Source of the DNA: Prosthecobacter dejongeii
GTDB lineage: Bacteria; Verrucomicrobiota; Verrucomicrobiia; Verrucomicrobiales; Verrucomicrobiaceae
DNA length: 64,000 bases
Direction: 5' to 3'
Assembly (NCBI RefSeq): GCF_014203045.1
Contig: NZ_JACHIF010000004.1
Coordinates: forward strand, 166,943 to 230,942
The notes beneath the pieces are model-generated. The model did no database searches, was not told the origin of the DNA, and saw only the letters and a program-made list of their open reading frames with translations. The position numbers were made by a program, and so were the translations under genes. Shown one piece after another: positions 23,897 through 34,681 of the stretch (position 1 is its first letter; each line of letters opens with the position of its first letter).

Positions 23897-25426
23897 TTAC
23901 TTCAAAGCTTTCAACACGGCCGCCACGAGGCCTGGAATGGTATTCGTTTCAGCCTCCACATTCACCGTCAGCCCACGTTTGCGGGCAGCTTCAGAGGTGA
24001 TCGGGCCGATGCTTGCCACCTGAATATCAGCGGGCAGGGGAATATTTAGGTCCAGGAAGCACTCCACGGTGCTCGCGCTCGTGAAGGTGATCATATCTGC
24101 GCCTTCGGCCACAAGCCGTGCGATGGCTTCCAGGTTGTCATCCTTCTCCGGAACGGTGCGGTAGGCGATGGCTTCATCCACGATCGCACCTAAGCCTGTC
24201 AGTTCATTGGCAATCACCTCACGTGTTTCTTCACCACGGACCCACAGAACATTGACATTTTCCATGTTCTGAAAGTCTTTGAAGGCAGCGACCAAGCCTT
24301 CTGCCACAAAATTCTTTTCTGGCATCAAGTCCACCGCCAGATGGTGCTCCTTCACTTTCTCTGCCGTGCCAGGGCCTACCACAGCAATGCGCACACCACC
24401 AATGCTGCGAGCATCATTGTAGATTTTGTAAAACATCTTAAAGAAAGCCTCCACAGCATTTGGACTGGTGAAAACCAGCCACTCATAAGTGTGGCAATCC
24501 TGGACGAGCTCCCCAAAGGCCATCAAATTATGCGGTTCTTCGATGCGAATGGTGGGTAGTTCGATCACATCGGCACCCAATATCCGCAGTTTTTTACTCA
24601 ATGCGCCGATCTGTTGTCTTGTGCGGGTGACCACCACGCGCTTGCCAAACAAAGGCCGATTTTCAAACCAATTGATGTTCTTCCGCTCCTTCACCACATC
24701 GCCTACGACGGCCACCGCCGGAGCTTTGAATCCAGCCTCCTTTACCTTGGCTGCCATGGTGCCCAATGTGGCGATCAGCGTTTGCTGTCGGCCATGAGTG
24801 GCCCAGCGAACCAAAGCCATAGGCGTTTCTGGATTCGCTCCATTTTCGATGAATTTCCCCGTGATTTCTTCCATGCGCTCCACGCCCATGAGGAAAACTT
24901 TGGTGCCATCTGCCTTCGCCAGCTTCGCATAGTCCAGGCTCGTTTCTTCTTTGGTGGGGTCTTCGTGGCCTGTGAAAATCGTCAGTTGGCTGCAATGGTC
25001 TCGGTGCGTCACGGGAATGCCCGCGTAAGCAGGCCCTGCGATAGCGCTAGTAATCCCAGGCACGATCTCAAAAGCCACACCCGCTTCAGCCAGCTCAGCC
25101 GCTTCTTCCGCTCCACGTCCAAATAAAACTGGGTCTCCACCTTTCAATCGCGTCACCACTTTCCCCTCACGGGTGAGTTTGACGATCAATTCATTGATTT
25201 GGTCTTGAGTCAGCGTGTGATCTTTGGCCTTTTTGCCCACATAGATCCGCTCCGTTCCAGGGCGCGCATACCGCAGGAACTCTGGATTGCACAGGTAATC
25301 ATAGACGAGAACGTCAGCGACCTCGATGCACTCTTTACCTTTGATCGTCAGCAGGCCGGGATCTCCCGGGCCAGCGCCAACGAGGTAACAGATGCCTGGG
25401 GAAGAAGGTGCAGATGATTTTGACAT
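23897..25426 (-). CDS. cobA-hemD: Fused uroporphyrinogen-III C-methyltransferase / uroporphyrinogen-III synthase
   Basis: The protein has 509 residues from the ATG at 25426. A longer start at 25483 would read toward the SRP RNA gene and is rejected. Residues about 10-250 are a SUMT/CobA domain: YLVGAGPGDPGLLTIKG, VVTRLKGGDPVLFGRGAEE and GITSAIAGPAYAGIPVTHRD. Residues about 260-505 are a HemD domain (GKRVVVTRTRQQ near its start, DMITFTSASTVECF near its end). The protein makes uroporphyrinogen III and methylates it twice to precorrin-2, the entry to siroheme and cobalamin. Such fusions occur in several phyla. Its own terminator makes it monocistronic. Confidence 0.95.
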   Translation of the reverse strand: MSKSSAPSSPGICYLVGAGPGDPGLLTIKGKECIEVADVLVYDYLCNPEFLRYARPGTERIYVGKKAKDHTLTQDQINELIVKLTREGKVVTRLKGGDPVLFGRGAEEAAELAEAGVAFEIVPGITSAIAGPAYAGIPVTHRDHCSQLTIFTGHEDPTKEETSLDYAKLAKADGTKVFLMGVERMEEITGKFIENGANPETPMALVRWATHGRQQTLIATLGTMAAKVKEAGFKAPAVAVVGDVVKERKNINWFENRPLFGKRVVVTRTRQQIGALSKKLRILGADVIELPTIRIEEPHNLMAFGELVQDCHTYEWLVFTSPNAVEAFFKMFYKIYNDARSIGGVRIAVVGPGTAEKVKEHHLAVDLMPEKNFVAEGLVAAFKDFQNMENVNVLWVRGEETREVIANELTGLGAIVDEAIAYRTVPEKDDNLEAIARLVAEGADMITFTSASTVECFLDLNIPLPADIQVASIGPITSEAARKRGLTVNVEAETNTIPGLVAAVLKALK

Positions 25427-25498
25427 GATGAGAAAGGGGCTACGACTGTGGCGAGCCTGCCGCACATGGCAACTCCCGCTCAATCGTGGAGCAAAGGA

Positions 25499-25751: not shown

Positions 25752-26840
25752 ATGGTCTGGAAGATTCTATCTGCACTCACAGCTGCCTGCCTCGCAGGTG
25801 CCGCCTACTTCGCATGGTCCAATCAAGCGGACTTGAAAAATGAGCGTACACGCCTCGCTGCCGCGAATGATAACCTCAAGGCTGCGCAAGAGCGCAAAAC
25901 AGCCGGCGATACTGCCTTGAAAGAGAAACAGCAGATTCTCGCAGATGCTCAAAAAGAGCGCGATGCCGCCCGTGAAGAAGTGCTAAAACAAACGGCTGAG
26001 GCCCAGGAAAAAGAAGCCGCTCTTGCCGTCATCAAAGGCAACCTGGATCAAGTTTCTTCCCAGGTCACTTCAGTTGAAAAGCAAATCGAAGACGCTGGTG
26101 ATATCGAAAAGCTGGTCGCTCAGATCGAAAAGCTCAAACAAGAGCAGCAAGATGCTGAAGGCGCTGTGGCTAATCAAAGCCAGCGTGTGGCTGCTGCCAA
26201 AGAGCAGTATGATTATGTGGTGAACCAAACCAATAAGCTCCGTGACACGGAGGCCCAAGGCCGTCGTGGTGTGGTTGCGGCTGATTTCACCGCTCGTGTG
26301 GCGCAATACTTCCCTGAGTGGGATTTCGCTATCCTGACCAAAGGCAATTCCCAAGGTGTTTTCGCCAACGCAGACCTGGAAGTGAAGCGCGGACGTCAGG
26401 TCATCGCAAAGCTGAAGGTTCGTAATGTTGAGCAGAATGGTTCCATCGCGGATTTGATCCCTGGAACGCTGGCAAAAGGAGATGCCATTCGCACGGGCGA
26501 CGTCGTCGTGGCGGCTGCTAAGCAGAGCGCCGAAGATGAGAAGAAGACGACCCCAAATCAGACTGCTGCTCCTAATGCTGAGGCTCCTGCGCCTGTGACG
26601 CCTCCTGCCGGTGCTCCAGCGATGAGTGATCCCTTTGGTGCCCCTGCTGGAACTCCAGCGCCAGCCGCTCCGATGAACTCTGATCCCTTTGGTGCTCCAG
26701 CGGCTCCCGCTCCGGCTCCTGCTGCCCCAGCTAACTCCGATCCTTTCGGCGCAGCCCCCGCTCCAGCAGCTCCTGCTGGCGGCGCTCCTATGAATTCTGA
26801 TCCCTTCGGTGCAGCCCCTGCTCCTGCCCCTGCCAACTAA
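25752..26840 (+). CDS. Membrane-anchored coiled-coil protein with DPFGA repeats (paralogue A)
   Basis: The protein has 362 residues. An N-terminal signal anchor (ILSALTAACLAGAAYFAW) is followed by a long Lys/Glu/Ala-rich coiled coil (about residues 25-165). A beta-rich domain follows (about 175-260: WDFAILTKGNSQGVFANADL, ADLIPGTLAKGDAI, TGDVVV). The tail (about 265-362) is Ala/Pro-rich with four DPFGA units, three of them preceded by NS. The middle beta domain is clearly related to the C-terminal domain of the next gene product. The anchor points to an inner-membrane protein reaching into the periplasm. The family is not recognised. Confidence 0.8.
   Translation: MVWKILSALTAACLAGAAYFAWSNQADLKNERTRLAAANDNLKAAQERKTAGDTALKEKQQILADAQKERDAAREEVLKQTAEAQEKEAALAVIKGNLDQVSSQVTSVEKQIEDAGDIEKLVAQIEKLKQEQQDAEGAVANQSQRVAAAKEQYDYVVNQTNKLRDTEAQGRRGVVAADFTARVAQYFPEWDFAILTKGNSQGVFANADLEVKRGRQVIAKLKVRNVEQNGSIADLIPGTLAKGDAIRTGDVVVAAAKQSAEDEKKTTPNQTAAPNAEAPAPVTPPAGAPAMSDPFGAPAGTPAPAAPMNSDPFGAPAAPAPAPAAPANSDPFGAAPAPAAPAGGAPMNSDPFGAAPAPAPAN
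26620..26837 (+). repeat. In-gene repeat encoding DPFGA units
   Basis: Four copies of a unit encoding (N/M)SDPFGA(P/A)A, separated by Ala/Pro linkers of 12-16 residues, form the C-terminal tail of the coiled-coil protein. Copy spacing is about 50-65 nt. The near-identical DNA could expand or contract by slippage. Confidence 0.8.
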
Positions 26841-26897
26841 GAGAACCCGGTTCTCTGTTGTTCTTCATTTCTCAGGCCACTTTATTTTCCCTCCCCA

Positions 26898-27683
26898 ATG
26901 ACCAAAGTCCTCTTCATCCTCAGCGCGGTCGTCATGCTCGTCGCCACTTTCTTCGCTTACCAAAATGGTCGAGCTTTTGTGGACGTGCGCCAGAGCGTCG
27001 CTACCACCAACGTTAAAGTTCAAAGTGAACTGACAGCTGCGACCGCCATCGTGAAACAGGTCACTGACGTCGCAAACAACGTGGATGCAGTTAAACAAGA
27101 ACTGGATGTTGAATCTGAGAAGATCAAATCTCAGAAACTGAAAATCACCCAGGCAGACAACGACACCAAGCGCACTCAGGAAGACCTTGATGGTCGCAAA
27201 AAGAAGCTGGATGAACTGAAGCTCAAGCTCGCCAAACTTCCCCAGGGTGTGAAGCCTGAGACTCTTGAAGAAGACAAAAACACCATCAAGAAGGCTGTTG
27301 CTGAACTTCAAGTCGCCGCAGAATTGAAAAAGAAAGAAGTGGCTGCTGAAGAAATCAAAGTGGTCGAAGCTCGCAAGGGATTGGATGATCTCGTCCGCAA
27401 GATTGAAGATCGTAAAAAATCCTTCGAGCGCAACGGCCTTACCGCTCAGGTGGTGGCTGTAAATAACGACTGGGGATTTGTGGTCGTAAATGCTGGCCAG
27501 AGCAAAGGTATCACGGAAGCGACCAAGCTACTGGTGACTCGTGGCACCCAGACTGTCGGTAAACTCAGCATCGTTTCTATCCAGGGAAATCGCACCATTG
27601 CCAACATTTTGCCTGATACCTTGGGTGAAGGCATGACGATCGCCCCCGGAGATCGTGTCATTTTGGAAAATCTGTATCAGTAA
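26898..27683 (+). CDS. Membrane-anchored coiled-coil protein (paralogue B)
   Basis: The protein has 261 residues. It shares the architecture of the preceding gene product: N-terminal anchor (VLFILSAVVMLVATFFAY), a long Lys/Glu/Asp-rich coiled coil (about residues 30-175) and a C-terminal beta domain (about 180-261). Aligned landmarks of that domain are W.F(A/V)(I/V).(K/N)(A/G)..(Q/K)G(V/I), then (V/L)..RG.Q......L.(V/I)..(V/I)..N..IA(D/N)(L/I)(I/L)P.TL..G, then GD.V. It lacks the DPFGA tail of paralogue A. The gene follows 57 nt after paralogue A. The two probably arose by tandem duplication and may pair through their coiled coils. Confidence 0.8.
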   Translation: MTKVLFILSAVVMLVATFFAYQNGRAFVDVRQSVATTNVKVQSELTAATAIVKQVTDVANNVDAVKQELDVESEKIKSQKLKITQADNDTKRTQEDLDGRKKKLDELKLKLAKLPQGVKPETLEEDKNTIKKAVAELQVAAELKKKEVAAEEIKVVEARKGLDDLVRKIEDRKKSFERNGLTAQVVAVNNDWGFVVVNAGQSKGITEATKLLVTRGTQTVGKLSIVSIQGNRTIANILPDTLGEGMTIAPGDRVILENLYQ

Positions 27684-27709
27684 TTCCTAAACGTGCGTAG
27701 TTTGAGATC

Positions 27710-27910
27710 ATGAATCCTCGCTTCATCCTTCAGACTCTTTTGGCCTTGGCCATGGTTCAGATGTTTTCCGCTTGTTCTTCATCGGACAATCGGAAGCGTC
27801 GCGAGCGTGTTCCTCCGCCAGCCGTCGGTGACAGCAGCCTGCCATGGAATCGTCCCCCTAAATGGGAAGGTAACGCTCGTTATGGCTCCATGATGCCACA
27901 GAGCCGATAA
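27710..27910 (+). CDS. Small lipoprotein, third gene of the coiled-coil operon
   Basis: The protein has 66 residues. A signal peptide ends in the lipobox FSAC, leaving a mature lipoprotein of about 45 residues that is Ser-rich, then basic (NRKRRERVPPP) and Trp/Pro-containing. It begins 26 nt after paralogue B and is followed by a strong terminator, so it closes the operon. A basic, extended lipoprotein could contact peptidoglycan or the coiled-coil partners; that is inference. No family is recognised. Confidence 0.7.
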   Translation: MNPRFILQTLLALAMVQMFSACSSSDNRKRRERVPPPAVGDSSLPWNRPPKWEGNARYGSMMPQSR

Positions 27911-27933: not shown

Positions 27934-27970
27934 CAAAAGGCAGCCTTTTTTGGCTGCCTTTTGTTTTTTT
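27934..27970 (+). terminator. Rho-independent terminator of the coiled-coil operon
   Basis: A perfect 12-bp stem CAAAAGGCAGCC/GGCTGCCTTTTG with a T6 loop is followed by a T7 tract. It lies 23 nt after the small lipoprotein stop. Confidence 0.95.
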
Positions 27971-28101
27971 GCGCTAGCTGGGATTAGATGTTCGTTTCAA
28001 TATTTGTGAAGACGGCCCTAATTAGCCGCGCATTCGTGAGATGAGCGATTTCTTACCTTCGTTATTCATTCTCTTTATTTTTTGCCCGTCCTTTTGCTCA
28101 G

Positions 28102-31241: not shown

Positions 31242-31342
31242 CGCGGCGTTGCTGGATCCGACACATATTTTGCCGTGGGTTTTCGTGAAAGATAACGTTT
31301 CAAATAACGCAACCACGCACATTCATTGTGCGCCTACCCACC

Positions 31343-34300
31343 ATGAAATTGACTCTACTATTGACCCTCGTTTTAGGGGCTATGGGACTCTCTGCAGTCC
31401 AGGCCCAAGACGGATTTCGCCCGTTGTTCAACGGCAAAGACCTTACCGGCTGGGATGGTAACCCCGAGCTGTGGAGCGTGGAAGACGGCTGCATCACGGG
31501 TAAAACCACAGGGCCAGAGCAACTAAGCTACAATCAATTCCTCATTTGGCGTGGAGGAGAAGTTAAGAACTTCGAACTCCGCATCAAGGCCAAGGTCACA
31601 GGCAACAACACCGGCATTCAGTACCGCAGTAAAGAACTGCCGCATGTAGGCAAGTGGTCCATCGGTGGTTACCAGTGTGACATCCATCCCGCAGCGCCCA
31701 ACAATGCCATGGTTTATGAGGAGCGTGGGCGCGGCATCATCTGCCAGAACGGCCAGAGCGTCGTTATTGATCCCCAGGCTAGCCAATGGATTGTCGCCGA
31801 GCGCGACCCTGTAGCCGCAGACGTGGCCCAGTGGAATGAATACACCGTCATCGCTCAGGGAAATCATCTCATTCATAAATTGAATGGCAAGGTGACCATT
31901 GACCTGGTGGATCATGAGGAAAAAGCCTTGTCGCTTTCAGGCCTGTTGGCCTTCCAGATCCATCGGGGACCTGCCATGCAGGTTCAGATTAAAGAGGTCA
32001 TGTTCAAGGAATTGCCTGAAGGCGGTCGCATCTCTTTTGCCAAAACCGAAATCCCGAACGACGCACAAAAGGTCGAAAAACCGGCTCCAGGTGCGAAGAA
32101 GGCTCAGGCAGCTAAAGCTAAAGTTGCAGCTAAAGCGCCAGCACCCGCTCCAGCGAAAGCTCGCCGCCCAGACGCCGTTGGTCCTGCCATTGGCGAGAAC
32201 AAAGCCACACCCGTGGCTCGTATCAAGGCAGCCAAAGATTTCAAAGTGGAACTGCTCTACTCCGTTCCTGGCGGCGAGCAGGGCTCATGGGTGGCTCTTT
32301 GCCTGGATGATAAAGGTCGCCTCTACGCCAGTGATCAGTATGGCGATCTCTACCGTTTTGCTCCACCTGCTGCCGGGCAGGTCTTGAAGGCTGAAGAAGT
32401 GCAAAAAGTTCCCGTCAACATCCGGGCCATCAACGGCATGGTGTTTGCCTTCGGCGCTCTGTATGCAGGCGTGAATGATTACGAGCAGAAGACCCAGAGT
32501 GGCCTATATCGCATCTCCGATAGCGATAGCGATGACCAGCTCGATAAAGTGGAACTGCTGCGTGGGTTTGATTCCAAAAGCGATCACGGTGTTCATGCCG
32601 TGATGCCCACCCCAGATGGTAAAGCACTTTACCTGATCACGGGAAACAATGCCGTCCTGAACGAGGGCCCCATCGCAGGCACTCCGGCGAGCTCTCCTGT
32701 CGCAAAGCTGTGGGGCGATGACCATCTGCTGCCACGCATGCCGGATGGCCGTGGTCATAACCGACACGTCCTTGCTCCTGGTGGCATCATTTATCGCGTG
32801 TCGCCCGATGGCAAACAGTTCGAAATCTTCGCTTCTGGTTTCCGCAATATCTATGACGCTGGCCTCAACAGCGATGGTGAACTCTTCACTTACGATGCTG
32901 ACATGGAATATGACTTCAATACGCCCTGGTATCGCCCAACTCGCGTCAATCACGTCGTCAGTGGCGGCGAGTATGGCTGGCGGAATGGGGCAGGGAAGTA
33001 CCCGGAATTTTACTCTGACAACTTGCCTGCTACGCTGAATATTGGCCCAGGCTCACCCACCGGTACCACTTTTGGTTATGGAGCTAAATTTCCAGCGAAA
33101 TACCAAAAGGCTTACTACATCATGGATTGGAGTTGGGGAAAACTCTATGCCGTGCATCTGAAGGAGGAGGGATCCACCTACAGCGCAGTCAAAGAAGACT
33201 TCATCACCGGCTCCCCTCTGCCGCTGACAGACGCTGTTGTTAATCCGAAAGATGGAGCCATGTATTTTGCCATCGGCGGTCGTCGCGTGCAGTCCGGTCT
33301 CTATCGCGTCACCTACGTCGGCAGTGAAGACACTTCACCTGTAGATATGACGGCAAAAACCACACCTGACCGCGCACTGCGTCATCAGCTTGAGGCTTTT
33401 CATGGCAAACAAGATCCTAAAGCCATAGCTGCTGCCTGGCCACATCTGAACAACAAAGATCGCTTCATCCGCAGCGCAGCACGGGTGGTGCTGGAGCATC
33501 AGCCTGTGGCTGAGTGGCAAGCCAAGGCCCTCGCAGAGCCCGATGCTGGTCGTCAGCTTGAGGCCTTGTTAGCTCTTGCTCGCGTCACCGGTAGCAGTGT
33601 GGGTCATCGCCCTGCTGATGCCGTGGTGAATACGGCCAGCCGCGATCAAATGTTGGCCGCCTTGCTGAAGCTCGATTGGTCTGCCCTCTCGGCAGAGCAG
33701 CGCCTCGGCTATGTGCGTCTGACTCAGATCATCCTGCATCGTTTCGGCAACCCTGATCAAACCACCATCGAGGCCCTCATTGCCAAGCTGGATCCGGCTT
33801 TCCCAGCCGAGAGCTTTGAGCTGAATTGGCTGCTTTGCGAAACACTGGCTTACCTTCAGGCACCCAATACAGCCGCTAAGGGCATGGCCCTGATCGCCGC
33901 CGCAGACAGCCAGGAGCCGCAGATGGAGTTTGCTCGCAGTCTGCGCATGCTGAAAGCCGGGTGGACTCCGGAGCTTCGCACCGCCCAGCTTGAGTGGTTT
34001 CTGAAAGCCGCGAACTACAAGGGGGGCGCCAGCTTCGACAAGTTCATTGAGTTCATCCGCAATGACAGTCTCGCCACTTTCACCGAAGCCGAGAAAACAC
34101 AGCTCGCAGCGCTCATCGCCAAAAAGCCAGAGCGCAAATCGGCCATCGAAAACGTCGGTGCCATGCTCGTCGGTCGCACACCCACGATGTGGACTTTGGA
34201 GGAGCTCAGCGCCGCTACCAAGACCGGCATGAAAGATCGAAACTTTGACAACGGTCGCAAAATGTTTGGCGCCGCAGCTTGTTACGCATGCCATCGTTTT

Positions 34301-34681
34301 GGCAACGCTGGCGGGATGAACGGTCCTGATCTCACGGGTGCTGGTGGCCGTTACAGCCCGCATGATCTGCTGGATCAAATCATCAATCCGAGCAAGGAGA
34401 TCAATGAGCAATTCGCTCCGATCGTCGTCACCAAAAACAATGGTGAAGTACTCAGTGGTGTGGTGGTGAATCTCAGCGGTGACAGCGTTACTTTGAATAC
34501 CGACCTCAGCGATCCTAACCAGCGTACCAATGTAGATCGCAAAGAGGTGAAAAGCATCGAGCCCAGCAAGGTCTCACCGATGCCTCCTATGCTTCTGGCC
34601 ATGCTGAAGAAAGAAGAAATTCTCGATCTTCTGGCCTATGTCCTCAGTGGTGGGGATAAGACCAACGCCATGTTCAAGTAA
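31343..34681 (+). CDS. Large secreted DUF1080 + sorbosone-dehydrogenase-like propeller + heme-binding protein
   Basis: The protein has 1112 residues from the ATG at 31343. A signal peptide ends near VQAQ. A DUF1080 domain (3-keto-glycoside hydrolase fold) follows, with FRPLFNGKDLTGW...WSVEDGCITGK. After an Ala/Lys/Pro linker comes a beta-propeller of the glucose/sorbosone dehydrogenase type (about 285-690: YASDQYGDLYRF, HGVHAVMPTPDGKALYLITG, ASGFRNIYDAGLNSDGELF). A helical HEAT-like region precedes a c-type heme domain with CYACH at about 980-984. It probably degrades or oxidises sugars in the periplasm, a PVC specialty. A strong terminator follows. Confidence 0.92.
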   Translation: MKLTLLLTLVLGAMGLSAVQAQDGFRPLFNGKDLTGWDGNPELWSVEDGCITGKTTGPEQLSYNQFLIWRGGEVKNFELRIKAKVTGNNTGIQYRSKELPHVGKWSIGGYQCDIHPAAPNNAMVYEERGRGIICQNGQSVVIDPQASQWIVAERDPVAADVAQWNEYTVIAQGNHLIHKLNGKVTIDLVDHEEKALSLSGLLAFQIHRGPAMQVQIKEVMFKELPEGGRISFAKTEIPNDAQKVEKPAPGAKKAQAAKAKVAAKAPAPAPAKARRPDAVGPAIGENKATPVARIKAAKDFKVELLYSVPGGEQGSWVALCLDDKGRLYASDQYGDLYRFAPPAAGQVLKAEEVQKVPVNIRAINGMVFAFGALYAGVNDYEQKTQSGLYRISDSDSDDQLDKVELLRGFDSKSDHGVHAVMPTPDGKALYLITGNNAVLNEGPIAGTPASSPVAKLWGDDHLLPRMPDGRGHNRHVLAPGGIIYRVSPDGKQFEIFASGFRNIYDAGLNSDGELFTYDADMEYDFNTPWYRPTRVNHVVSGGEYGWRNGAGKYPEFYSDNLPATLNIGPGSPTGTTFGYGAKFPAKYQKAYYIMDWSWGKLYAVHLKEEGSTYSAVKEDFITGSPLPLTDAVVNPKDGAMYFAIGGRRVQSGLYRVTYVGSEDTSPVDMTAKTTPDRALRHQLEAFHGKQDPKAIAAAWPHLNNKDRFIRSAARVVLEHQPVAEWQAKALAEPDAGRQLEALLALARVTGSSVGHRPADAVVNTASRDQMLAALLKLDWSALSAEQRLGYVRLTQIILHRFGNPDQTTIEALIAKLDPAFPAESFELNWLLCETLAYLQAPNTAAKGMALIAAADSQEPQMEFARSLRMLKAGWTPELRTAQLEWFLKAANYKGGASFDKFIEFIRNDSLATFTEAEKTQLAALIAKKPERKSAIENVGAMLVGRTPTMWTLEELSAATKTGMKDRNFDNGRKMFGAAACYACHRFGNAGGMNGPDLTGAGGRYSPHDLLDQIINPSKEINEQFAPIVVTKNNGEVLSGVVVNLSGDSVTLNTDLSDPNQRTNVDRKEVKSIEPSKVSPMPPMLLAMLKKEEILDLLAYVLSGGDKTNAMFK

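Follow-up and report, generated by a model that had tools for sequence, protein, structure and literature searches.

The window analysed here, a 64,000-nucleotide stretch of a Prosthecobacter dejongeii contig, carries three consecutive open reading frames on the forward strand, to which the features described within them and the terminator behind them also belong. We refer to them as genes A (25752–26840, 362 aa), B (26898–27683, 261 aa) and C (27710–27910, a 66-residue lipoprotein). A and B are separated by 57 nt, B and C by 26 nt, and a strong intrinsic terminator (27934–27971, with a 12-bp stem at 27934–27963 followed by a T run) closes the unit. Reading frames, order, spacing and terminator were all as given by a previous sequence-only reading of this DNA, and the three genes form one operon-like unit of envelope proteins. 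A sigma-70-like promoter was looked for and not found between 25450 and 28150; we thus infer a single A-B-C transcript from the spacing, the shared strand, the terminator and, above all, the conservation of the arrangement. Upstream of A, and divergent from it, lies a gene for a CobA-HemD fusion (uroporphyrinogen methyltransferase and uroporphyrinogen-III synthase; window positions 23897–25441). Elsewhere in the window, the large protein encoded at 31328–34681 shows by eye a cytochrome-c-like CxxCH segment (CYACH) in its C-terminal part, which resembles other large proteins of Verrucomicrobiota and Planctomycetota, again as judged by eye only.

The two large proteins had been described as paralogs, and this is borne out by both comparisons that we made. 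BLASTP aligns 144 aa of A and B at 30% identity (E=2e-13), and a profile-profile alignment (probability 100%, E=7e-47) spans the anchor, the coil and the beta domain entirely; paralogy by these alignments extends along the entire part that the two have in common. Both are predicted to be anchored in the inner membrane, A by an uncleaved-type signal anchor and B, the conserved core protein, by a helix that begins at residue 2. AlphaFold2 models based on 25-row family alignments place helices at residues 2–114 and 118–172 of A and beta structure at 180–254 (mean pLDDT 77, pTM 0.40), and helices at residues 2–112 and 121–179 of B, followed by six strands at 183–256 (mean pLDDT 81, pTM 0.38). Anchor, coil and beta domain follow one another in both proteins in the same way, and the coil, previously described as a rod, is predicted to be a helical hairpin and not one straight rod in models of modest input (25 rows, pTM 0.38–0.40). 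In B the predicted turn covers residues 113–120 (27234–27257), and homologs carry a helix-cap-like PEE/PET segment (TPEEI, EPEEI and similar) just past it, in agreement with a hairpin. The beta domain, a barrel in the models, occupies 26283–26516 in A (residues about 178–255) and 27435–27668 in B (residues 180–257), and four positions of the latter, F194, R215, G251 and D252, are invariant in the phylum-wide alignment. We also noted a third, short paralog of about 229 aa (L003:1054–1743, G000:C8) that has an anchor, a linker rich in Pro and this beta domain, but not the long coil; it adjoins a TlyA-like methyltransferase gene, and most genomes of the genus give similar matches.

An Ala/Pro tail (26517–26837) follows the beta domain in A only, as had been stated. 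It contains four DPFGA units (at 26628, 26682, 26739 and 26799), of which B has none, and its low pLDDT from residue 262 onwards indicates that it is probably disordered. At least two DPF motifs arose by chance in 11 of 20,000 shuffles of the tail. Such repeats are common among the A proteins of several order families and absent from those of the Akkermansia-like family f2. At one locus (L047) the linker is Gly-rich instead of Ala/Pro and the repeats are still present; the persistence of DPF through this change of linker suggests that selection may act on the motif itself.

Gene C encodes a signal peptide and a lipobox with the lipid-attachment cysteine at residue 22 (27773–27775), which leaves a mature chain of 45 residues. 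In an alignment of 46 homologs this cysteine is invariant and the residue preceding it is Gly, Ser or Ala throughout, as is typical of bacterial lipoproteins. Asp is found at position +2 in 0 of the 46. Under the E. coli sorting rule a lipoprotein without Asp at +2 is directed to the outer membrane, and C is predicted to reside there, probably on the inner face, to the extent that a rule unproven for Verrucomicrobiota applies to them. The description of C as a basic lipoprotein of 66 residues holds for its length, lipobox and cysteine, but not for its charge as a family trait: mature chains of 27–47 residues range in charge from −6 to +5, and the basic character is, on this alignment, lineage-specific. 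Near the C-terminus of the homologs lies the signature PWN-x-P-x-x-WE, which pattern matching places at 27842–27868 in C, in the form PWNRPPKWE.

B was matched in all 56 genomes of the genus and order, and its profile in 139 of the 141 genomes of the class and, at 1e-4, in 280 of the 289 genomes of the phylum sample, where weak matches may represent the coil only. For C, the cut-off was set at E≤1e-6 because beyond about 1e-5 the profile picks up ordinary signal peptides of lipoproteins, and about 237 of the 289 genomes (counted by hand) carry the gene at this level; a tally of 286 of 289 at E≤0.01 was discarded as inflated. A DNA pattern for the C motif yielded 66 sites in 65 of the 289 genomes, as compared with one site for the reversed-pattern control, and most of the sites read in other classes lie in very short lipoprotein genes that come right after a B-like gene. 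Gene order, which had been proposed as a check, is conserved as well: C lies immediately downstream of B in 79 of the 81 Verrucomicrobiota genomes with strong matches to both, a count made from profile-match coordinates compiled by hand.

Within the order, A precedes B in nearly all the loci that we fetched, and C comes next in most of those with enough sequence. The A-B-C arrangement spans several families of the order, and its flanking genes vary even within the genus. Class loci outside the order usually hold B and then C alone, and the B-C pair recurs across the phylum; further families contain more divergent B-C cassettes, and in some families the two genes are unlinked. Conservation beyond close strains, the test set by the sequence-only reading, is thus order-wide for A-B-C and phylum-wide for B-C. 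The conserved core is, as judged from these distributions, B plus C and not all three genes, and the proposal of two rods with a lipoprotein as the conserved system is not supported in that form: A is a duplicate confined to the order, and in many members it has acquired a disordered extension in which DPF(G) recurs. All the named organisms among the matches listed are Verrucomicrobiota, and our hypothesis is that B-C is specific to this phylum.

Neighbouring genes provided no clue to function. Those that recur beside B-C are metabolic or regulatory and often convergent, and include, as named by eye, Asd-like, LeuB-like, ArgH-like, Fur-like and NYN-like proteins. Loci L208, L211, L195, L243, L245 and L266 display what looks like an ancient synteny of B-C with the Asd-like gene across classes, and in some families a NYN-domain-like gene lies upstream (genes named by eye).

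The history of the duplications was approached with a tree of the beta domain plus the 35 preceding residues (92 rows, 112 columns; quick method, no bootstrap). The first copies of the order, 25 in number, all clustered together with an SH-aLRT of 96. The 25 second copies, which adjoin C, likewise formed a single group, but with a support of only 59, and it is placed near the single-copy members of the class. Tandem B copies of families f55 and f58 and of one f35 genome group apart from those of the order, which, in a tree of few columns and no bootstrap, points to tandem duplication of B having occurred repeatedly and independently. The loci with such duplications are L309–L315 and L200:5273–6862. 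The ancestral unit is, on this phylogenetic picture, one rod (B) together with C. In f58, PWN-x-P-x-x-WE forms the C-terminus of a larger lipoprotein (about 150 residues), and B is located elsewhere; at these loci (L260:5154–5603, L261:5083–5538) the peptide looks like a portable tag.

Scans of Pfam, NCBIfam and PHROG with whole A, B and C returned no covering family, only generic coiled-coil or signal-peptide noise, and the B profile, run in full against PDB sequences, returned coiled coils only, such as myosin. The previous statement that no known system matches thus stands as regards curated families, but the beta domain has distant relatives in the MreC barrel core and the C-terminal domain of FlgT. 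Used alone, it matched FlgT_C, its closest remote Pfam family, in 10 of 22 members (best 3.1e-6) and the MreC barrel core (PF04085) in 12 of 22 (best 1.4e-4). The corresponding profile gave a marginal match to MreC among PDB sequences (E=0.12), and a second match at chance level. In Foldseek searches the best solved-structure match of B was FlgT (4e-4), with EmrA at 2e-3, while A matched F1-ATPase-type barrels and MreC at 2e-3 to 4e-3 (MreC 3.6e-3) and EmrA at 1e-2. In our reading B carries a barrel of the MreC/FlgT_C type on its anchored coil, the relationship being remote, and we regard the A/B/C unit as an MreC-like anchored scaffold with a small lipoprotein, for which we found neither a family model nor a description in open-access papers.

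The best explanation of these data, which we hold tentatively and at somewhat less than an even chance, is that B-C is an envelope module of the Verrucomicrobiota in which an MreC-like inner-membrane scaffold and an outer-membrane lipoprotein serve as a tether or scaffold. B would hold its N-terminal helix in the inner membrane, extend an antiparallel coiled-coil hairpin into the periplasm and carry the small beta-barrel at its end. C, a very short lipoprotein that probably sits on the periplasmic side of the outer membrane, would display PWN-x-P-x-x-WE on an unstructured chain, and this peptide could be bound by the B barrel or by something docked on it. The pair would hold or position a machine of the outer membrane, or one linked to the wall, with respect to the inner membrane; within the order, copy A would pair with B, and in many members would add a disordered arm of DPF(G) docking motifs. 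A physical trans-envelope complex, as suggested earlier, is a plausible hypothesis.

Lineages that keep C and have no detectable B are the main reason for our limited confidence. Families f60 and f53 have a strong C and no strong B, and two single-contig genomes of 0.9 Mb retain C (L276:5496–5759 and L307:5207–5461), while a six-frame search there found nothing of B; in these, C stays in the ancestral neighbourhood of Fur-like, ArgH-like and TatC-like genes, which flank B-C elsewhere. Since C is kept in this manner in several lineages, B cannot be its sole partner, and C must, as far as gene content indicates, also act without B. These losses favour a second, more basic partner. That C outlasts B speaks for an alternative, unlikely in our estimate, in which C is an LptM-like accessory subunit of a Bam- or Lpt-type outer-membrane assembly machine and B an optional factor that delivers or positions it. 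E. coli LptM (YifL) is likewise a lipoprotein of the outer-membrane type, very small and with a conserved peptide of short length (PMC10567701), and C, with a mature chain of 27–47 residues and one conserved aromatic peptide, is similar in size and style. The NCBIfam LptM model matched 1 of the 46 C members weakly (0.0063), probably through the signal peptide. However, the two proteins have no sequence relationship beyond the lipobox: the peptide of C lies near its C-terminus, the N-terminal CGLKGPLY-type segment of LptM is absent from the C alignment, and the gene partner is a different one. The linkage of B and C in 79 of 81 genomes, in addition, argues for a shared job, and the neighbours that we identified include no recurrent Bam or Lpt gene.

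MreC is a periplasmic scaffold, and its likeness to A and B in the order of N-terminal anchor, coiled coil and beta-barrel, seen in the AlphaFold2 models, would fit a second MreC that regulates wall synthases within the elongation or wall machine, with C as the link to the outer membrane. We consider this distinctly improbable. A and B differ from MreC in their single barrel, their long predicted hairpin and the lipoprotein encoded next to them; neither whole protein matches PF04085 at the curated cut-off, and no link of A or B to mreB, mreD or other mre genes was seen. Canonical MreC is encoded separately in the same genome, on another contig, and is present in 12 of 12 further genomes tested, most of them picked for having no detectable B, which means that B is not a replacement for MreC; a role of B as the missing MreC was ruled out on the same grounds. 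B as a substitute for Pal/OmpA was likewise unsupported: genomes have OmpA-domain proteins whether or not B is present.

The anchor and antiparallel helical hairpin of A and B, together with their weak fold matches to EmrA, are also features of periplasmic adaptors of export pumps (EmrA/HlyD type), for which C would be an outer-membrane accessory. This is very unlikely: the barrel of A and B comes only after the hairpin, which lacks the flanking lipoyl/barrel halves of such adaptors, the EmrA alignments have an rmsd of 28–30 Å, HlyD was matched at no better than E=0.11, and the unit is accompanied by unrelated metabolic genes and not by a pump or TolC-like gene. A part in a flagellar or pilus basal ring, by analogy with FlgT and its partners FlgO and FlgP, can hardly be credited, as the FlgT likeness, although the best that B has among solved structures and remote Pfam families, is limited to the small C-terminal barrel domain (PF16538), no FlgT N or middle domain was seen in A and B, which add a membrane anchor and a coiled coil, and the unit occurs almost throughout the phylum, without flagellar or pilus genes as recurrent neighbours.

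Two further comparisons concern the lipoprotein. Rz/Rz1 spanins also combine an inner-membrane coiled coil with a small outer-membrane lipoprotein, but A, B and C are chromosomal core genes phylum-wide, include a beta-barrel domain and do not form a phage lysis cassette, and PHROG spanin matches were at noise level (E 0.026 or worse). WP_009060351 of Methylacidiphilum is a lipoprotein of 139 aa, encoded beside amylase genes, whose conserved 53-aa C-terminal domain, with Tyr and Lys, has been reported only in Verrucomicrobiota and for which a link between outer membrane and wall was proposed (PMC10260701); by its description it looks different from C and is probably a distinct protein.

Returning to the tether or scaffold module, a wider claim, possible but in our view doubtful, is that C is a core outer-membrane lipoprotein throughout the phylum, that it forms with B a Verrucomicrobiota-specific system, for envelope tethering or outer-membrane assembly, that other phyla lack, and that PWN-x-P-x-x-WE is a portable docking tag. 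Independently of this, the retention of B-C across most of a diverse phylum, and of C alone in genomes of 0.9 Mb, makes the pair very likely to be important for the envelope. The repeated duplications of B, and its losses with C retained, constitute a natural experiment on scaffold evolution, and PWN-x-P-x-x-WE offers a peptide signature by which hundreds of small unannotated lipoproteins could be named. Verrucomicrobiota, to which the gut bacterium Akkermansia belongs, would gain a defined envelope module testable by deletion and pull-down.
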